IMG/VR virus record: IMGVR_UViG_3300034375_013346
Span: 1 to 64,000 of that record
Length of the DNA stretch: 64,000 nucleotides
Direction: 5' to 3' (one strand)
Origin: a virus
In this document: positions 22,259 through 63,068 of the stretch, in pieces
Layout: every line of letters starts with the position of its first letter
Position numbering within the stretch: the stretch's first letter is position 1
Notes under the pieces: model-generated
What the model was told of the DNA's origin: nothing
The model's input: only the letters and a program-made list of their open reading frames with translations
The model's database searches: none
Made by a program: the position numbers and the translations under genes

Positions 22259-22705
22259 ATGACAAGTTTATATCGTAGTACATCCATTATTTTTTTGCTA
22301 TCAATTCTACACATAATCTCATATTCACAGACTTGCCAACAGCACATACTTTCAACAGTTCCAGCCACTGAATGGACCACTTGGCAATACGTTAGTTGTG
22401 AAACATCCGATACAGTCACCCAAAGTCTACCCTGCTGTGGATGGACATTACCTGTATGCGCCGTAATTGGAACTGTCGAGCTCATTGATGGGGACGGATT
22501 TAGTGCTCCACTAATTAATGAGGTTGGTGGTCCATGGGAATCCTGTAGTCAATATAACGAAAATGAAACTGACACCTGTCAGTGGGATCTGGATCAGGAT
22601 GGAAGGATAGCTGTTTCAGATCTGCTTATAATGCTAGCCAACGATAGCTATGGTGAGGGTGATTTGGAGGGTCTCCTAAATAACTTCTCAAATCAATGCG
22701 AATAA
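22259..22705 (+). CDS. Exported protein with dockerin-like EF-hand segment
   Basis: 148 residues. Signal peptide at 1-24 (SIIFLLSILHIISYSQ) with a cut before TCQQH. Residues about 25-80 are Cys-rich beta; about 105-135 hold a calcium-loop, dockerin-like repeat (WDLDQDGRIAVSDLLIML). Its stop overlaps the ATG of the T9SS-sorted gene by 10 bp, so the two are made together and may interact. Exported to the periplasm or beyond; no T9SS sorting domain of its own is seen. Confidence 0.8.
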   Translation: MTSLYRSTSIIFLLSILHIISYSQTCQQHILSTVPATEWTTWQYVSCETSDTVTQSLPCCGWTLPVCAVIGTVELIDGDGFSAPLINEVGGPWESCSQYNENETDTCQWDLDQDGRIAVSDLLIMLANDSYGEGDLEGLLNNFSNQCE

Positions 22706-25700
22706 TCAGTCTTTTATCACTGCTGTTATTATTTCCTATTCACAGTTCTTTCTCGCAATGTGATGTTTTTATCGAACCAGGATCAGTTAATGTTATAGAC
22801 AATGGCTCTGGTGTAATGTTTGAGTTTGATGTTACAAACTCATCCTCTGGTGATTGGTACGGGGACGTCTTAAAAATGTACTGGTCTCTCAATTCGGGTG
22901 CCCCTATATGGAATATCGATTATAGTACTAACACAAATCAACCGCCAATAGCCCCAGGAGAAACTCGTACTTTAGAAACCCCCTGGTTCGATATTCCTAA
23001 TCTCCCTTCTTGGTTTCCTGAAGACCCAGGACCAGGAGGTACTTTGGATGACAACTGGATAGAAGCTTACGAATGGCCCTATTGGTCAGTAACCCCAGAT
23101 GGGTTTGATGGTACTTGGTCACAAGTTAACCTCAGACTAGGAAGTTGCGGATTAGCTGATGGTGCTTGGGTATACAACTCAGACGGTACACAATACTATG
23201 GTCCATTTAATTCTGATTGTCCTGATCTAAATGGAGACGCCTTTTGTGATTGTGATTTAGATTTTATAGGATTCGACCCAGTCACTCTGGATGTAAGTGT
23301 CGAGGTTATAAGCGACTGGAACTGTGGCACTACATTGAACGCTGGGATGAGTTCCGAAATGAGCTCCATTAATCACATACACTTCGGAATCCATGTCCCA
23401 GGATGGGATTATCCATGGGGATGCACAACCGGGATTAATCACCCGGGATGGTCATTTGCAGGATGGAGTAGCTTAGGAATAGAATCCTCTGAATTACATG
23501 CTGGTGACATCTTTAATGCTAACCTTCTAGATATTGGCGGAAGTGGTGATTGCTTTCAAGAGATTCTATCCAGTGATACCTTGACCGCTTGTCCTGAAAT
23601 TGTTATATGGCAAATAAATTATTCTAAAACCTTAAACGTATCGGATGGCGGATGGGCGGTAAACCCAAGCATCGGAAATAGTACACAGGAATATCCCGAC
23701 ATTTCCATAGGTCTAAACTCCCTATCTGCTTGCGATACACCTCCCCCATTGTATCCAGGTTGCATGGATCCTGAAGCAACTAACTACGATCCTACTGCAG
23801 GTTATGACGATAATACATGCGCATACGGTCCTGTTCTAGGATGTACAGATCCTGTGGCTTGCAATTACAATAGCTCAGCCAATTCAAACGATGGAAGTTG
23901 CGATTATTCTTGCATTGGATGTACGGATGAAAGCGCAAGTAATTATAATCCTGAAGCAGTATATGATAATAATTCTTGCGAATATCTCTTCCCAGACGCA
24001 GATCCCTCGGTAAACTTTAACCAAGTAATATGCAACGGGGAAGATCCGGAAAACTCATATAATATCTTTGTTTATAACTACGGTGAAGATACACTCTTCT
24101 ATTATTGCATAGAAATCCCAGAATTGGAATTTGATGAATGTTATAACGGATATGAAATGGGAAATCTATGGATTGAACCAGGGGCAGGACAATTCATGGG
24201 AACTTTTAATGTCCCAAGCAACCTATCCCAATTCACCGTTATAGTTTATGATGCAGATGGAGAACCAGTTGGCGACGGTGGGAATAACGTACAGGTGATT
24301 AATATAAGTCCAATATTAGTCAATCCTTGTCTACCCCTGATTGATCTAGGAATAGACACACTAACTTCACAACTTGGGGGTTGTAACGGCCAGCCTATTT
24401 ATTGGATACCCCAAGTCAACGTAATTAACTACGGGGAAGAAGACATAACCGAGTTCTGCACAACCTTCGATATCCTGAATGACGGAATCCCAATGGATAC
24501 TATTTGTCTCGATGGATTATCTTTATCCCCAGGAGATACGCTGGTCGTCGAATTCCCACAAAACAATTATGGAGCTGATCTTCCTGTAACAGTAACCACA
24601 AATATCATACATATAAATGGTGAAAATCCACCAAGTACAGCCGGCTATGATCAAGTTTACGATAACAACTATAGTGTAAATAACTTCCAGATGTGGTGTT
24701 ACGATTGTACAGATCCAGAGGCAAACAACTATAACGAATATGCTACTGATGATGACGGATCTTGCACTTACGATTTATTAGAACTGATCTATGTTGACCT
24801 CTACCCTATTAATGGATGTGACCTCACGGAAGGCGGATATTACATACCGGAAATTCTATTTGAAAATACAGGAAACGTAGAAATAACCGAGTTTTGCTCT
24901 ACCTACGACATTTACGGATCAACATACGAGGAGGAATTTTGTTGGACAGGAACCTTAAATCCGGGGGATCTTATTTACATACAGTTCCCTCCTGTTTTTG
25001 AGGATGGATTAGGTGCTGCCTATATACAAGTAAATGGAATAAATGGACAGATAAGCTTCACTGAGACAATCACTGGGGTTAACTATGCATCATATTCGGA
25101 TGACGAGTGCATATATGGATGTACGATAGTTGAGGCATGCAATTACGATCCTTTAGCCACAGTAAATGACGGTAGTTGTGATTTTGAAACCTGTGTAGGA
25201 TGTACCGACCCTCTAGCTACTAACTACAACCCAGATGCTTGGTTTGACGACGGATCTTGTGAATATGACATACTTGGTTGCACGGATCCGGCTGCATTAA
25301 ATTATGATCCTCTGGCTACTTTGGACGACGGAAGCTGCCAATACGTAATTTATCTAGGAGGATGCACAGACCCAGAAGCTATTAACTACAATGTTGCTGC
25401 AACATATGACGACGGAAGCTGCATATATGATCCATGTAGCGGAATACTAGGAGCAGTTTATTATGCACCCAATACATTCACTCCTAATAACGATGGTGTG
25501 AATGATGGATGGACCATAGTTACTGATCCTCAATGCTGGTTAAAGTGGCACGTACAGATCTACAACCGTTGGGGACAACTTATTTGGGAATCTTTCACTC
25601 CAGGAGAGGTTTGGCCAGGGTCTCAATTCGACGGAGGATATTACGTAGCTGATGGAGTTTATTTCTATCAGGTTATTGGCATCGGATACAACCCAGCTAA

Positions 25701-25740
25701 CACATTCAGAACCTCCGGGAATATAACAGTATTTAGATAA
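22696..25740 (+). CDS. Secreted Cys-rich repeat protein with T9SS type B sorting domain
   Basis: 1014 residues. Signal peptide at 1-21 (SLLLLFPIHSSFSQ). Beta-rich, aromatic regions alternate with about eight repeats of the type G-C-T-D-P-x-A-x-N-Y-N-P-x-A-x2-D-D-G-S-C (about 355-435, one near 671, and 808-915). Residues 925-1014 match the gliding-motility/type IX secretion C-terminal domain: NTFTPNNDGVNDGW, VQIYNRWGQLIWES, and DGVYFYQV. Bacteroidota use this domain to send proteins through the outer membrane by the T9SS. Such repeats are common in marine Bacteroidota surface proteins, so host origin is likely. Plausible roles: altering the infected cell's surface, blocking other phages, or adhesion. 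Confidence 0.9.
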   Translation: MRIISLLSLLLLFPIHSSFSQCDVFIEPGSVNVIDNGSGVMFEFDVTNSSSGDWYGDVLKMYWSLNSGAPIWNIDYSTNTNQPPIAPGETRTLETPWFDIPNLPSWFPEDPGPGGTLDDNWIEAYEWPYWSVTPDGFDGTWSQVNLRLGSCGLADGAWVYNSDGTQYYGPFNSDCPDLNGDAFCDCDLDFIGFDPVTLDVSVEVISDWNCGTTLNAGMSSEMSSINHIHFGIHVPGWDYPWGCTTGINHPGWSFAGWSSLGIESSELHAGDIFNANLLDIGGSGDCFQEILSSDTLTACPEIVIWQINYSKTLNVSDGGWAVNPSIGNSTQEYPDISIGLNSLSACDTPPPLYPGCMDPEATNYDPTAGYDDNTCAYGPVLGCTDPVACNYNSSANSNDGSCDYSCIGCTDESASNYNPEAVYDNNSCEYLFPDADPSVNFNQVICNGEDPENSYNIFVYNYGEDTLFYYCIEIPELEFDECYNGYEMGNLWIEPGAGQFMGTFNVPSNLSQFTVIVYDADGEPVGDGGNNVQVINISPILVNPCLPLIDLGIDTLTSQLGGCNGQPIYWIPQVNVINYGEEDITEFCTTFDILNDGIPMDTICLDGLSLSPGDTLVVEFPQNNYGADLPVTVTTNIIHINGENPPSTAGYDQVYDNNYSVNNFQMWCYDCTDPEANNYNEYATDDDGSCTYDLLELIYVDLYPINGCDLTEGGYYIPEILFENTGNVEITEFCSTYDIYGSTYEEEFCWTGTLNPGDLIYIQFPPVFEDGLGAAYIQVNGINGQISFTETITGVNYASYSDDECIYGCTIVEACNYDPLATVNDGSCDFETCVGCTDPLATNYNPDAWFDDGSCEYDILGCTDPAALNYDPLATLDDGSCQYVIYLGGCTDPEAINYNVAATYDDGSCIYDPCSGILGAVYYAPNTFTPNNDGVNDGWTIVTDPQCWLKWHVQIYNRWGQLIWESFTPGEVWPGSQFDGGYYVADGVYFYQVIGIGYNPANTFRTSGNITVFR
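23758..25440 (+). repeat. Cys-rich GCTDPxAxNYxPxAxxDDGSC protein repeats
   Basis: About eight copies of a roughly 22-residue coding repeat in two clusters plus one single copy, with Cys at both ends and an acidic DDGSC end that could bind calcium. Copies differ in DNA sequence, so they are old or selected, not recent duplicates. Confidence 0.8.
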
Positions 25741-25745
25741 TCCAC

Positions 25746-25777
25746 AAAGAACCCCGGATAAAAATCCAGGGTTCTTT
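25746..25777. terminator. Bidirectional terminator between converging genes
   Basis: AAAGAACCC/GGGTTCTTT and GGAT/ATCC arms form a 13-bp stem with one mismatch and an AAAA loop, six bases after the T9SS protein stop and before the end of the opposing gene. U-tracts are short but present on both sides. Confidence 0.75.
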
Positions 25778-25802
25778 GGTATAGACGAGGAACAGAGATT
25801 TC

Positions 25803-26408
25803 TCAATCCTCGAATAAGCTTTCAGTGTTCGTTTTTCGGTTAAAGTATTTCTCTGCATGCTCCCGATTTAATGCATTCACAAACTCATCGATTTCATCCG
25901 CTGACGAGAAAACAAAAACCCCTCCCTTGGAATCAATATACTGATTGGAGTATGAGTTGAGTTCTCCGGTGGAAACGATAAGTAGAGGAGCACCATCGAT
26001 GTGCTTAAATCTATAGGTCAATCTTACGCTGTAGTCGAAGTTCCAATCACCATATGTAAATGCACATTTGAGATTTCTTGGTTTAATTGACATCTCTTTT
26101 TCAAGATCCGTTACATTATTAGCAACAGAAATCGAATCCCATTCGGCATACTTACTCCTCGCTTGTTCCATGTTGCTAATTAAGGAAGCAAGATCATCAG
26201 GTTTTTCAACCATTAAAACAACAGGTCTATTTTCACCAGCTAGAGAATACATGTCAATAAAGTATTCATAATCACCGTCGTCCTGGACTGCGGAGACCTC
26301 ATATGAGGGATTTTCAAAATAGCTCATCATATACGAGCTAATAGCTTCTTGACCCGATGCTGAAGCTGAGAGGATCAGGGCAAAGATAAACGGCGCTACT
26401 TTTTCCAT
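25803..26408 (-). CDS. Exported protein of unknown function
   Basis: 201 residues with a signal peptide at 1-19 (VAPFIFALILSASASGQ). The mature part is mixed alpha/beta with no recognised family. Its place opposite the secreted pair suggests a periplasmic or envelope role. Confidence 0.7.
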   Translation of the reverse strand: MEKVAPFIFALILSASASGQEAISSYMMSYFENPSYEVSAVQDDGDYEYFIDMYSLAGENRPVVLMVEKPDDLASLISNMEQARSKYAEWDSISVANNVTDLEKEMSIKPRNLKCAFTYGDWNFDYSVRLTYRFKHIDGAPLLIVSTGELNSYSNQYIDSKGGVFVFSSADEIDEFVNALNREHAEKYFNRKTNTESLFED

Positions 26409-26637: not shown

Positions 26638-26910
26638 TCATATTCGCCGTTCCGCATGGTTTTTTTTATTTAGGGTTAGGTATACACCAAATAAGGCGGA
26701 GATAAAGATAAACAAAAATCCTGGGTCAATTGATATTGTACCGCAACAGTTGTAGCAAGGATGTTGTGTATCGTTACACCACCACGGTGGATTTACCTGA
26801 TAGCAAGGCTGACAGTCGCTTTCTTCGGGCCCGCTAAGATAAGATCCGCTGCCATAGTCAGTGAGATATGGGTTGTTTGTAAAAGCTGGATCTTTTTTCG
26901 GATCATACAT
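26638..26910 (-). CDS. Cys-rich single-span membrane protein
   Basis: 90 residues. The N-terminal 60 carry six cysteines (CQPCYQ, WWCND, CYNCC); one membrane segment (GFLFIFISALFGVYL) and a basic tail follow. No signal peptide. Function unknown; the Cys pattern could bind metal or form disulfides outside the membrane. Confidence 0.6.
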   Translation of the reverse strand: MYDPKKDPAFTNNPYLTDYGSGSYLSGPEESDCQPCYQVNPPWWCNDTQHPCYNCCGTISIDPGFLFIFISALFGVYLTLNKKNHAERRI

Positions 26911-29269: not shown

Positions 29270-29280
29270 AATTAGATTTG

Positions 29281-29721
29281 TGGAGCTGGGGGGATTCGAA
29301 CCCCCGTCCAGCTAGGCAAATCCTAAGAACATCGTTCACAGGCTTAGTTGATTGTACGACATCAACAAACTTTTCCCAATCCGGATTTTTGAACTGAGGC
29401 GATCGGATTCCTCAGCGGAAGACGCTAACAGCGATCTTAAGGGTATTGGACTGTGGTCCTCAGGGTTACTGATCGACTTCCTATTGTGGGTACTACTAAC
29501 CCTTATTCCCCGTTTGCAACTTTCTGTTCCTAGGCAGTTACCGCCCGGTGCTTAGGCTACAAGTGCAACTTCAGCTTCCTCAACAGGAGCTAGTCCTGCA
29601 AGGATATAAAATGGGTTTTCGCCATTTAAAAAATACATAGGTTATTATAGAGTTTCCAATGCTAACTCTGCCTGCATCAATTCAAAGAACTTCGGCCTCC
29701 TGTCGATTCCATTTCAGCCCC
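29281..29721 (-). ncRNA. ssrA: Transfer-messenger RNA (tmRNA)
   Basis: About 441 nt. The 5' end GGGGCTGAAATGGAATCGACAGG and the 3' end GGACGGGGGTTCGAATCCCCCC-AGCTCCA pair as the alanine-tRNA-like domain (GGGGCTG/CAGCTCC); CCA is not encoded. The tag frame runs from the resume codon GGC at 29623 to TAA at 29552: 23 codons, starting GENPFYILAGLAP and ending EVALVA. The GEN start is like Bacteroidota tags, but those are about 8-10 residues and usually end ALAA. tmRNA frees stalled ribosomes and tags the broken product for proteolysis; a phage ClpP is at 36659. Confidence 0.93.
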
Positions 29722-41194: not shown

Positions 41195-42340
41195 TTAAAA
41201 AAGAGTGTTTATCATAAATAAATTAGGGCTTATCGGGTTGTAACCCATTACCTCTATAAATCTGTTAATCGGATCAAGGATAGTTTTAGTAAACTGCTCA
41301 TCAAAATCTATAGGTGGAGCAAATTCATGTGGGAATGTACCCTGAGCATATGCAAAAACGTTATTTTCCATTACGTTCTTCCTCTTTACAAAATAAAATC
41401 TAACCTTTTCCCCGCCCCCGATCAAGGGATATTTATCCTTGAACTTCGTTGAATTCAGAAGGTAATTGTGATATGCTGATGCTCTAACATGTATAGGACA
41501 ACCCTTGGCTACCTCCAGATTGGTTGTGTCGTTTAATACAAACTTCTCGTAGTTATTAACCATGATAGCAGCGGATATATTTTCGGGCTCTTGAGCCTTA
41601 AAGTCTCTCTTGATCTTCTTGAGCTCCTGAACAAATTCTCGGAGCTCGAATTTATTACCCTTGCTAAAAATAAATTTGGTTAAGTATATGAGCTTCTCCC
41701 TTACGAATGATGGGGTTCCGCCTTTCACCATCTCAACCCCAGTAGTTTTGATGGATGTTAAAGGCTCGGAATGTACACCTTCGGAATAAACGATATTGGT
41801 AACATATTTTTTCTTACCCAGGAATATCCCGTTGATGGAGAGAGTCTCCATCTCAAAATCCTGATAATTATCAGTTCCCCATTTTTCTGCGTAGATATCA
41901 AAGCACTTCTTGAGATATCCGACTAATCGATTCTCATTTATTGCTAATATCAAATCCTTTTCACTTCCTTCCCATCCTTCACAAGAGGCTACGACTTCCT
42001 GAAAGGTTACATAGTTGGAGTCAGTATCACCATAAACGACCATCGGCTTGTGTATCTTCTTAACCGATGTTAGTCCCAGCTTATCATGCAATTCCTTGTC
42101 CTTATGCCAAAACTCATGAAAATACTTATCGAGAATCTTCTCGGAGTGCTTAATCAAGCTTTGTCCTTGTAGGGTAACAGCTTCAGCTACTTCGGGATTA
42201 AAACAGGCAAACCAGCTATTCCCTATTGCACCATAAATGGAATTCATGGTAAGTTTTACAGCTTGCTCCTCGTTCTTAAGCTCATTCTTAAGAGCCGTAA
42301 GAACCTCAATTTTTTCCTTTAATTCTTCCCTCTCAGACAT
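41195..42340 (-). CDS. DNA polymerase family B, C-terminal part (palm/thumb)
   Basis: 381 residues. Starts inside the fingers domain and holds motif B (KLTMNSIYGAIGN) and motif C with the catalytic aspartates (VYGDTDSNYV), then KKYVTNIVYSEG and the thumb. It lacks the exonuclease and motif A, which are in the separate gene at 61274. Together they equal one T4 gp43-type polymerase. The first 25 residues are a charged helix that could pair with the helical end of the other half. Split gp43 is known in Aeromonas T4-like phages. Confidence 0.93.
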   Translation of the reverse strand: MSEREELKEKIEVLTALKNELKNEEQAVKLTMNSIYGAIGNSWFACFNPEVAEAVTLQGQSLIKHSEKILDKYFHEFWHKDKELHDKLGLTSVKKIHKPMVVYGDTDSNYVTFQEVVASCEGWEGSEKDLILAINENRLVGYLKKCFDIYAEKWGTDNYQDFEMETLSINGIFLGKKKYVTNIVYSEGVHSEPLTSIKTTGVEMVKGGTPSFVREKLIYLTKFIFSKGNKFELREFVQELKKIKRDFKAQEPENISAAIMVNNYEKFVLNDTTNLEVAKGCPIHVRASAYHNYLLNSTKFKDKYPLIGGGEKVRFYFVKRKNVMENNVFAYAQGTFPHEFAPPIDFDEQFTKTILDPINRFIEVMGYNPISPNLFMINTLF

Positions 42341-61273: not shown

Positions 61274-62686
61274 CTACCCCATTTTTTTTAATTGTTTCTC
61301 CATCTGATCAATTTCAATCTGGAGTTTTAACATTCGATCTTTAGTTGCTTTACGCTTGGCATAAAGATCTTTAATTATTGTCTTAAGTATTGGATTTTCC
61401 GAGTCACCTCCAAAAACGGCCTTAGATGAAGTTCTCACCCATCCTTCCTTAACTTCGGATAAGTTTATTCCCTCCTTTCCTTTATAAACCTCAGGGGATA
61501 TTCCCCATTGAACAATCGTATTAGGATACAGAGAGGCAAAGTCGTAACAAGCCACCCATTCATGTAGACCTTTGATGGGCTCTTTCACATATCCACCTAT
61601 AAATTTAACGTGGCTTTCCTCTTTCCTCTCGTTAACAAAAACCTGTCCCCTCTCTAAGAATTTGCGGAGCATCAGCACTTCCGTTGACCAAACAGGAGAA
61701 AGAGCCCTACTTATCTCAACGCCATTTAAATTGGCAATTTTGAGATAAGTAAGCATTGTTTGAAGCTTTACGTCTATATAGTGAACAAGAGCGCAGTCAA
61801 TAACATTATACAGTATAAATTTTGGAAAATCGGACTGATACAGGTCCCTTAGGGATCCATTATAGACTATCTTTTTAAGTCCCGTGGCCTTTTCCGCTAC
61901 GTAATCAAGTCTATTACTTTCTTTAATTTTTATTACTCGGTCCCACTTCCGGTATATCTCCAGATAATCGACCATGAGCAAGTGCATGGGGAGGTTGTTC
62001 TTTCCAATGAGCCAATTGGAAGGAGATATTATCTTAGGATCTATGCCCAACCTCTTAGCTCTGTTAACCAAATACGGCCAGTCATATCCAAACCAGTTCC
62101 ATCCAGTAATCAGGGACATTTTGGGTGCTAGGTTCTTGAAGAAAGTATAAAGCATATCATATTCACTCTCGAATTTATGATACTTAAAACTCCACTCATC
62201 GCCCATTGGAGACAGATACTCGTTAGTCCTTCTATGGATATCGGCTTGCTCTTCAGGGGTAAGTGGGTCTAGACCAAGCATAATCGCCTTACATCGGTCA
62301 GTGGCTATACCTATTGAAAGAACCTTATTCTTTGCCGATGCTGTATCGAGTGAATCCCTCATCTCGTCGGTCATCTCTACCTCTATATCGACAAAATATT
62401 TTTTGGGAGTCTGGAATTCAAAAAGGGGCTTAGTTAACTCCGGATCAGCCTCTTCCAAGATCTGTATCATCCGATACTTGTCATATTTCTGGGTTTTTGC
62501 TTTTCTAACTGGGAACCCGTCCCAGCTCTCCCATTCCTTCTCCCTTCTACTATCTGATGGTGAGCATTTTTCCCATATGAATCTCTCCTTATCAGGGACC
62601 GGAACATTAATAAATATTAAATCACCGTCCTCAGAAAAACTTGATACCTTCAAGTAGGTTCCTTTATTCTCAATATCAACTATCAT
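61274..62686 (-). CDS. DNA polymerase family B, N-terminal part (exonuclease, motif A)
   Basis: About 470 residues from the ATG at 62686 (MIVDIENKGTYLK); the longer open frame starts at a non-ATG codon and adds a hydrophobic stretch that does not belong. The 3'-5' exonuclease motifs are present: FVDIEVEM, ITGWNWFGYDWPYL, and VIDCALVHYIDVKL, then polymerase motif A in CYDFASLYPNTI. It ends in a charged helix in the fingers (MEKQLKKMG). Motifs B and C are in 41195-42340, about 19 kb away. Confidence 0.93.
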   Translation of the reverse strand: MIVDIENKGTYLKVSSFSEDGDLIFINVPVPDKERFIWEKCSPSDSRREKEWESWDGFPVRKAKTQKYDKYRMIQILEEADPELTKPLFEFQTPKKYFVDIEVEMTDEMRDSLDTASAKNKVLSIGIATDRCKAIMLGLDPLTPEEQADIHRRTNEYLSPMGDEWSFKYHKFESEYDMLYTFFKNLAPKMSLITGWNWFGYDWPYLVNRAKRLGIDPKIISPSNWLIGKNNLPMHLLMVDYLEIYRKWDRVIKIKESNRLDYVAEKATGLKKIVYNGSLRDLYQSDFPKFILYNVIDCALVHYIDVKLQTMLTYLKIANLNGVEISRALSPVWSTEVLMLRKFLERGQVFVNERKEESHVKFIGGYVKEPIKGLHEWVACYDFASLYPNTIVQWGISPEVYKGKEGINLSEVKEGWVRTSSKAVFGGDSENPILKTIIKDLYAKRKATKDRMLKLQIEIDQMEKQLKKMG

Positions 62687-62744
62687 CAAATATTTAGATT
62701 TATTATATCCTAACCAGATCAGGTTGGAGGATATATAGAAGTAT

Positions 62745-63068
62745 ATGAAAGCTAACATCAAAAGTTTCGAAGATTTCTTATTAGAATATTACGTTTCGGA
62801 AGCTCCAGGTAGCGTTGTAGTACCGGGTGAATGGTACAAGGACAGCGTTAATTCCAGGAACTACCGCCCAGCATATACTCAAATGCCCCAAGTAGTGGAC
62901 TCAATGTTCCAAACAACCGACCTATACAACTATCTGGATACCCTTTCCGAGGAGGAAGAGTTTAATAGGATAGTCAAAGAGAATAACGGAGAACCGAAGA
63001 AAATAATTAAATATCTTAAGAGACGAATAAACGAGGAGCTTCTACCTCAGCAGAAGGGGGAAAAATAA
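62745..63068 (+). CDS. Small capsid-targeted protein
   Basis: 107 residues starting MKANIKSFEDFLLEYY: F-x-x-F then L-L-E. Acidic middle and a basic C-terminus. Plus strand, 12 bp before the amidase gene. No family recognised; head-internal protein by the motif. Confidence 0.75.
   Translation: MKANIKSFEDFLLEYYVSEAPGSVVVPGEWYKDSVNSRNYRPAYTQMPQVVDSMFQTTDLYNYLDTLSEEEEFNRIVKENNGEPKKIIKYLKRRINEELLPQQKGEK

Follow-up and report, generated by a model that had tools for sequence, protein, structure and literature searches.

The window analyzed here, a stretch of 64,000 nucleotides representing positions 1 to 64,000 of IMG/VR virus record IMGVR_UViG_3300034375_013346, is part of a 114,611-base (114.6 kb) record in which most genes lie on the minus strand. 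One of the few plus-strand units, at positions 22259-25740, was found to consist of two genes, designated D and T, the start of T overlapping the end of D by 10 nucleotides. T is an uninterrupted open reading frame (ORF) whose product carries the signals of a type B cargo of the type IX secretion system (T9SS), and D encodes a smaller exported protein (Table 1). The original prediction, which was made from the window sequence alone, had described T without a partner gene; its account of T stood, though the exported partner located directly upstream had been missed. It had also placed T in a phage genome, which is in agreement with the phage genes on both sides of T (DNA polymerase B, T4-type topoisomerase subunits, a UvsW-type helicase, ribonucleotide reductase and an exonuclease) and with homologues of T in other phages. 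Further genes of the record include an endolysin, glycosyltransferases, tRNAs and a transfer-messenger RNA (tmRNA). The record is probably incomplete, since a terminal repeat is lacking and none of the terminase or portal families that were tried gave a match.

The C-terminal domain of T matches Pfam CHU_C PF13585 with 55.6 bits (cut-off 27; residues 924-993) and NCBIfam TIGR04131 with 36.3 bits (cut-off 35; residues 924-978). Type A sorting model TIGR04183 returned 14.2 bits, under its cut-off of 23, thus ruling out T as a type A cargo of the kind known from Cryophage. Signal peptides were called from sequence, using a hydropathy rule and a cleavage site according to the Bacteroidetes Q-rule for signal peptidase I (PMC5837995), and that of T ends in SFS/QCD, the slash marking the predicted cleavage. 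As the mature N terminus is Q-C-D following SSFS, with no cysteine directly at the cleavage site, T is without a lipobox. Type B substrates are recognized by a C-terminal sorting domain, a Sec signal and five conserved motifs (A-E) within the final 100 residues; T possesses both the sorting domain and a Sec signal peptide, and the conserved blocks of the sorting domain align between the phage copies. Between these signals, T contains exactly eight repeats of the CTDPxAxNY...DGSC pattern, not even one of which occurred in any of 2000 residue shuffles, although such repeats, judged from their presence in some cyanophage proteins, are not specific to secretion. The mature protein has a computed mass of ~109 kDa and a computed isoelectric point of 4.05, the ORF specifying 44 cysteines and only nine lysines plus arginines, and T ranks first for atypical codon use among 17 long genes compared. 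The signal peptide, the eight Cys-rich repeats and the intact type B domain were thus all as originally predicted, and the TIGR04131 profile search, whose failure had been named as grounds for abandoning the prediction, returned a match. Together, the signal peptide and type B domain support the proposed route through the host type IX system, and it is very probable, as far as sequence can tell, that T is exported to or through the cell surface.

Table 1. Features of the D-T unit and its immediate surroundings (positions in the window).
Feature	Position	Strand	Description and basis
D	22259..22705	+	148-aa exported partner; signal peptide (ISYS/Q), Cys-rich body
T	22696..25740	+	1014-aa type B T9SS cargo ORF, ATG start, open throughout
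T signal peptide	22696..22755	+	cleavage predicted before Q21 (Bacteroidetes Q-rule; sequence and hydropathy rule)
T N-terminal domain, residues 21-180	22756..23235	+	alignments; strong conservation among long relatives
T core head domain, residues 181-350 (QCD...HPGW...GDT...WQIN...YPD)	23236..23745	+	alignment and structure model
T repeats 1-3, CTDPxAxNY...DGSC type	23761..23979	+	pattern search
T repeat 4	24706..24765	+	pattern search
T repeats 5-8	25120..25422	+	pattern search
T type B sorting domain, residues 924-1014	25465..25737	+	PF13585 and TIGR04131 above cut-off
Hairpin between T and convergent gene	25745..25778		-20.9 kcal/mol, z -4.0, not equalled by any shuffle
201-aa neighbouring ORF	25803..26408	-	Q-rule-like signal peptide (SASG/Q); neighbour, not counted in unit

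The best indication that D and T function jointly comes from a search with the D family alone, independent of T, which returned 51 viral loci. T lies beside D on the same strand in 47 of these: the two are direct neighbours in 44, with a 9-12 nucleotide overlap or a 2-3 nucleotide gap, and separated by one gene in three, the intervening gene being DUF5675 in the one that was scanned and a like gene in another. The remaining four contigs stop 146-889 bases downstream of D, too early to reveal a sorting domain. The order of the genes is variable (D-T or T-D), and all 51 D proteins have a Q-rule signal peptide followed by Q(x)C; Q-rule signal peptides are likewise present in T and in 36 of its 40 signal-bearing relatives. 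The D protein of the window carries a single dockerin/EF-hand-like segment (DLDQDGRIAVSDLL). From this conserved arrangement, there is a strong case that D and T act together. The core head domain of T is present in 43 of the 47 D-linked T proteins, three of the four exceptions being truncated, and a Fisher test on another set gave no significant restriction of D to core-bearing T (p 0.27, small numbers). At about ten other loci a secreted M43 metalloprotease takes the place of D as the upstream partner. Such metalloproteases were located directly upstream of a type B protein at L074:848-2755, L102:2283-4190, L134:6258-8012 and L110:8235-9731; some M43 proteins have an end that resembles type A by eye (no NCBIfam match), and others end in dockerin-like repeats.

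Among 48 non-redundant T proteins, 34 possess the core head domain, and a model built from these 34 sequences reached a predicted local distance difference test score (pLDDT) of 80 and a predicted template-modelling score (pTM) of 0.80. The structure prediction that had been suggested as a check was therefore successful for the core, and unsuccessful for the first 346 residues of T, for which a model from six sequences was poor (pLDDT 39) and was discarded. The core domain had no match in Pfam or PHROGs, sequence searches of solved structures gave no match, and just two viral predicted structures matched the core model at E <= 0.001.

Comparison of related loci indicates that the T head has been exchanged between phages, with D, the sorting domain and the flanks persisting. 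Loci L065 and L082 share flanks at 94-100% identity and both D and the sorting domain at 100%, their heads being 46% identical; at loci L091 and L100 the flanks are mostly 95-100% identical, the sorting domain 88% and the head 19%. Furthermore, L082 and L091 have heads that are 96% identical, and in their flanks only D (78%) matches. The closest relatives of T reside in phages that have almost no flanking genes in common. Based on the head-swap pairs, the unshared flanks and the atypical codon use, the sequences point to a mobile cassette with a diversifying head.

Relatives of T at 45-50% identity were found in ten other IMG/VR contigs, one of them a 270-kb jumbo phage that has genes for a portal and a terminase; only 13 of the 132 predicted ORFs of the window record match this phage, T doing so over its whole length. 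Viral contigs were searched with one stringent nucleotide pattern for type B sorting domains; of the 99 stretches returned, 80 were fetched, and every one of these encoded a sorting domain, usually terminating an ORF with a signal peptide. A terminase profile match was obtained in 18 of 47 tested sorting-domain contigs, and two huge phage records (635-642 kb) contain four and three type B domains. Type B cargo, as judged by these pattern counts, the co-occurring terminases and the huge-phage copies, is common in viral contigs and not peculiar to the window phage. The survey of other phages for T9SS domains, proposed at the outset, thus yielded many examples, and such proteins are less exceptional than had been assumed. 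No annotated phage record with the T head or D was found, and a match to MT839536 was set aside as this record holds bacterial-type genes (UvrA-like).

Three unrelated large phages, of 270, 642 and 635 kb, encode mini proteins of ~110-125 residues (L031:1396-1773; L061:1438-1788, minus strand; L062:1363-1743), which comprise little beyond a signal peptide and a type B sorting domain and are possible secretion-system decoys. The 270-kb jumbo phage (loci L038-L043) also encodes a 917-residue TonB-dependent receptor, a CAP protein, an M43 metalloprotease, a fasciclin-domain protein and a non-specific nuclease; most of these carry signal peptides, and so large a set of envelope proteins is unusual in a phage. 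Its genes at 127325, 133538, 142795 and 146760 have a common N-terminal stretch like NEVNRMRQIMGL...LEQ, in which we see a resemblance to the capsid-targeting peptides of T4, with their prohead protease site.

In the jumbo clade, each of the five contigs extending far enough contains a gene for a PorP/SprF shuttle at a distance of ~7 kb from T, with PF11751 scores of 153-156 bits; the shuttle of the 270-kb phage scored 179.6 bits with TIGR03519 (cut-off 90.6). It has been reported that the secretion of overproduced type B fusions requires co-production of a matching shuttle, and that a linked shuttle gene is usual for type B substrates yet not obligatory, orphan substrates being known (PMC12618676). 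The presence of a phage-borne PorP/SprF makes sense in light of this need for a matching shuttle.

The possibility that the T island represents host contamination or an assembly error, which the original prediction had itself raised, was rejected because full-length homologues occur in independent phage contigs, including the 270-kb jumbo phage. While the coding strand of T differs from that of its neighbours and T has atypical codon use, the family is present in many independent phage contigs, including those with a terminase family match, the D-T unit recurs in dozens of viral loci, and no bacterial homologue was returned by two bacterial genome scans (two short peptide patterns each, of limited sensitivity) or by the plasmid collection. 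An artefact of this kind is thus practically discounted.

With regard to the surroundings of the unit, the hairpin between T and the convergent gene is probably a two-way terminator, a promoter scan gave a site count no higher than chance, and family searches with the neighbouring 201-residue ORF gave no match. A 90-residue Cys/Pro-rich protein with one apparent membrane segment is encoded beside the island (26638-26910, minus strand); it is 46% identical to a counterpart in the otherwise unrelated 270-kb jumbo phage and had no family match. The tmRNA gene is located at 29278-29721 on the minus strand (Rfam RF00023, 81.5 bits), and tmRNA genes of the same family are present in the jumbo relatives (L002:5932-6320, 99.4 bits; L011:7957-8346, 97.1 bits). 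The DNA polymerase B gene is apparently split into two minus-strand genes ~19 kb apart (61274-62761 and 41195-42340), each covering a different half (first or second) of phrog_262.

The two export signals, the conserved partner, the mobility of the cassette, the head swapping and the shuttle of the relatives are read from sequence, and they form the basis for the following proposal. It is our favoured and fairly probable reading that D and T constitute a small, mobile, phage-borne surface-display cassette, which would most likely mask or alter receptors by means of its variable head. In a Bacteroidota host cell, both proteins would be exported through the Sec pathway and processed by signal peptidase I at their Q-rule sites, after which T would cross the outer membrane via the host type IX system using its type B C-terminal domain. 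PorP/SprF handling of T would be provided by the host in the case of the window phage as far as it is sequenced, and by the phage's own shuttle in the jumbo relatives. D would most likely bind or mature T, which would stay on the cell exterior, forming a long, acidic, Cys-rich and probably calcium-binding stalk that shows the variable head. Receptors would thereby be masked or altered, sister phages would be kept from re-infecting the cell, and progeny would not be lost on debris. Because many phages with no other kinship have such cassettes in common and reshuffle them, it is probable that these viruses re-coat infected cells.

Several observations weigh against this proposal. None of the T heads has a known binding partner, and the best match of the core model in the PDB (a lamin tail, Ig-like; E 0.17) was not significant. 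In addition, PorP/SprF is absent from the window record, both by profile and by tblastn with the jumbo-phage shuttle, and from two huge phages and 46 of 47 other contigs, mostly fragments; phages of this kind would need host shuttles, given that none was found in their records.

The head swapping and the conserved D make a surface role more likely, and do not distinguish between superinfection block, receptor masking and aggregation. Masking or exclusion is rated the likeliest benefit, although it is a tentative choice that we hold at somewhat less than even confidence, because gliding-machinery proteins have been proposed as receptors of Flavobacterium phages (PMC7345892) and because swapped, exposed heads fit an arms race. 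Its main rivals are a secretion decoy and a display that benefits the host. In the former, phage substrates would occupy host shuttles or the SprA translocon, such that host adhesins and gliding proteins, which are possible receptors, no longer reach the surface and the head matters little. Shuttles are scarce and limiting in type B export (PMC12618676), and the mini proteins of the three large phages, composed of signal peptide plus sorting domain, would suit such a role; conserved heads, head swapping and a dedicated D would, however, be superfluous, and a phage that brings its own shuttle eases a shortage rather than creating one, so that we consider a decoy unlikely. A similarly low probability is assigned to T being an adhesin or enzyme that aids attachment, aggregation or digestion by the infected cell, thus helping phage spread or yield: known type B cargo consists mostly of adhesins (PMC12618676), and at about ten related loci the gene paired with that of T encodes a secreted M43 metalloprotease, yet T often occurs in phages presumed to be without a long-lived state, for which a host gain during a short lytic infection would be implausible.

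It is far less probable again that T belongs to the virion, for instance as a fibre, and carries its sorting domain only incidentally. Similar repeats do occur in some cyanophage proteins, one of which is annotated as virion structural, and some T genes lie near baseplate genes; however, the signal peptide, sorting domain and partner stay together across phages, and the PHROGs search gave no structural match. No homology to a known structural protein was detected beyond the repeats, the S-CAM3 and AG-345-P14 matches spanning just 8-12% of T. Extending the display-cassette reading, Bacteroidota phages might broadly take over type B secretion and re-set what the cell displays, through swappable D-T cassettes, shuttles of their own in the jumbo phages and mini-domain competitors; this wider scheme is a speculation to which we assign a low probability.

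The data indicate that Bacteroidota phages are able to place their own proteins outside infected cells through the T9SS, a system that to our knowledge is confined to the Bacteroidota. Two questions are thereby opened to direct test: how infection alters the Bacteroidota cell surface, and how type B substrates and shuttles recognize each other, the latter because these phages provide naturally occurring substrate-shuttle pairs and head swaps. Concrete targets for standard laboratory work in Flavobacterium johnsoniae are offered by the core domain, D and the mini sorting domains.

Among known systems, Llp of phage T5 is a superinfection-exclusion outer-membrane lipoprotein that masks surface receptors; receptor masking is likewise the effect proposed for T, which, in contrast to Llp, lacks a lipobox and would depend on the T9SS. 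Virus NIOZ-UU157 protein A0A7S9STS8 (Foldseek match to the core, E 2.2e-10, 29% identity) owes its name, gliding motility-associated C-terminal domain protein, to this type of sorting domain, although it is only 406 residues long; no functional account of it was present in the searched literature. Secreted proteins of Porphyromonas gingivalis phages also follow the Bacteroidetes Q-rule, but no T9SS sorting domain is mentioned for them (PMC10367356). The type B substrates of F. johnsoniae, as exemplified by SprB-SprF (PMC12618676), have a sorting domain of the same family, and the jumbo relatives similarly contain substrate and shuttle in one neighbourhood; T differs in being phage-encoded, the jumbo shuttle lies 7 kb off on the other strand as opposed to directly downstream, and the window record is without a shuttle. 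No report of phage type B cargo, PorP/SprF, the partner gene or the mini domains was found in the open full-text literature, a body with few preprints and no subscription papers, where a single report of phage-encoded T9SS cargo, that of the type A proteins of Cryophage, was identified (Bellas et al., 2020; PMC7468147). The Cryophage cargo resembles T in combining a phage-encoded T9SS sorting domain with high variability among close phage variants. However, it carries a type A domain on enzymes (endoglucanase, GH39, PA14), whereas T is type B, with a core domain common to many T proteins, a partner gene of its own and PorP/SprF in its relatives. New in the present study are thus the partner D, the head domain, the swapping of heads and the PorP/SprF shuttles of the jumbo relatives.
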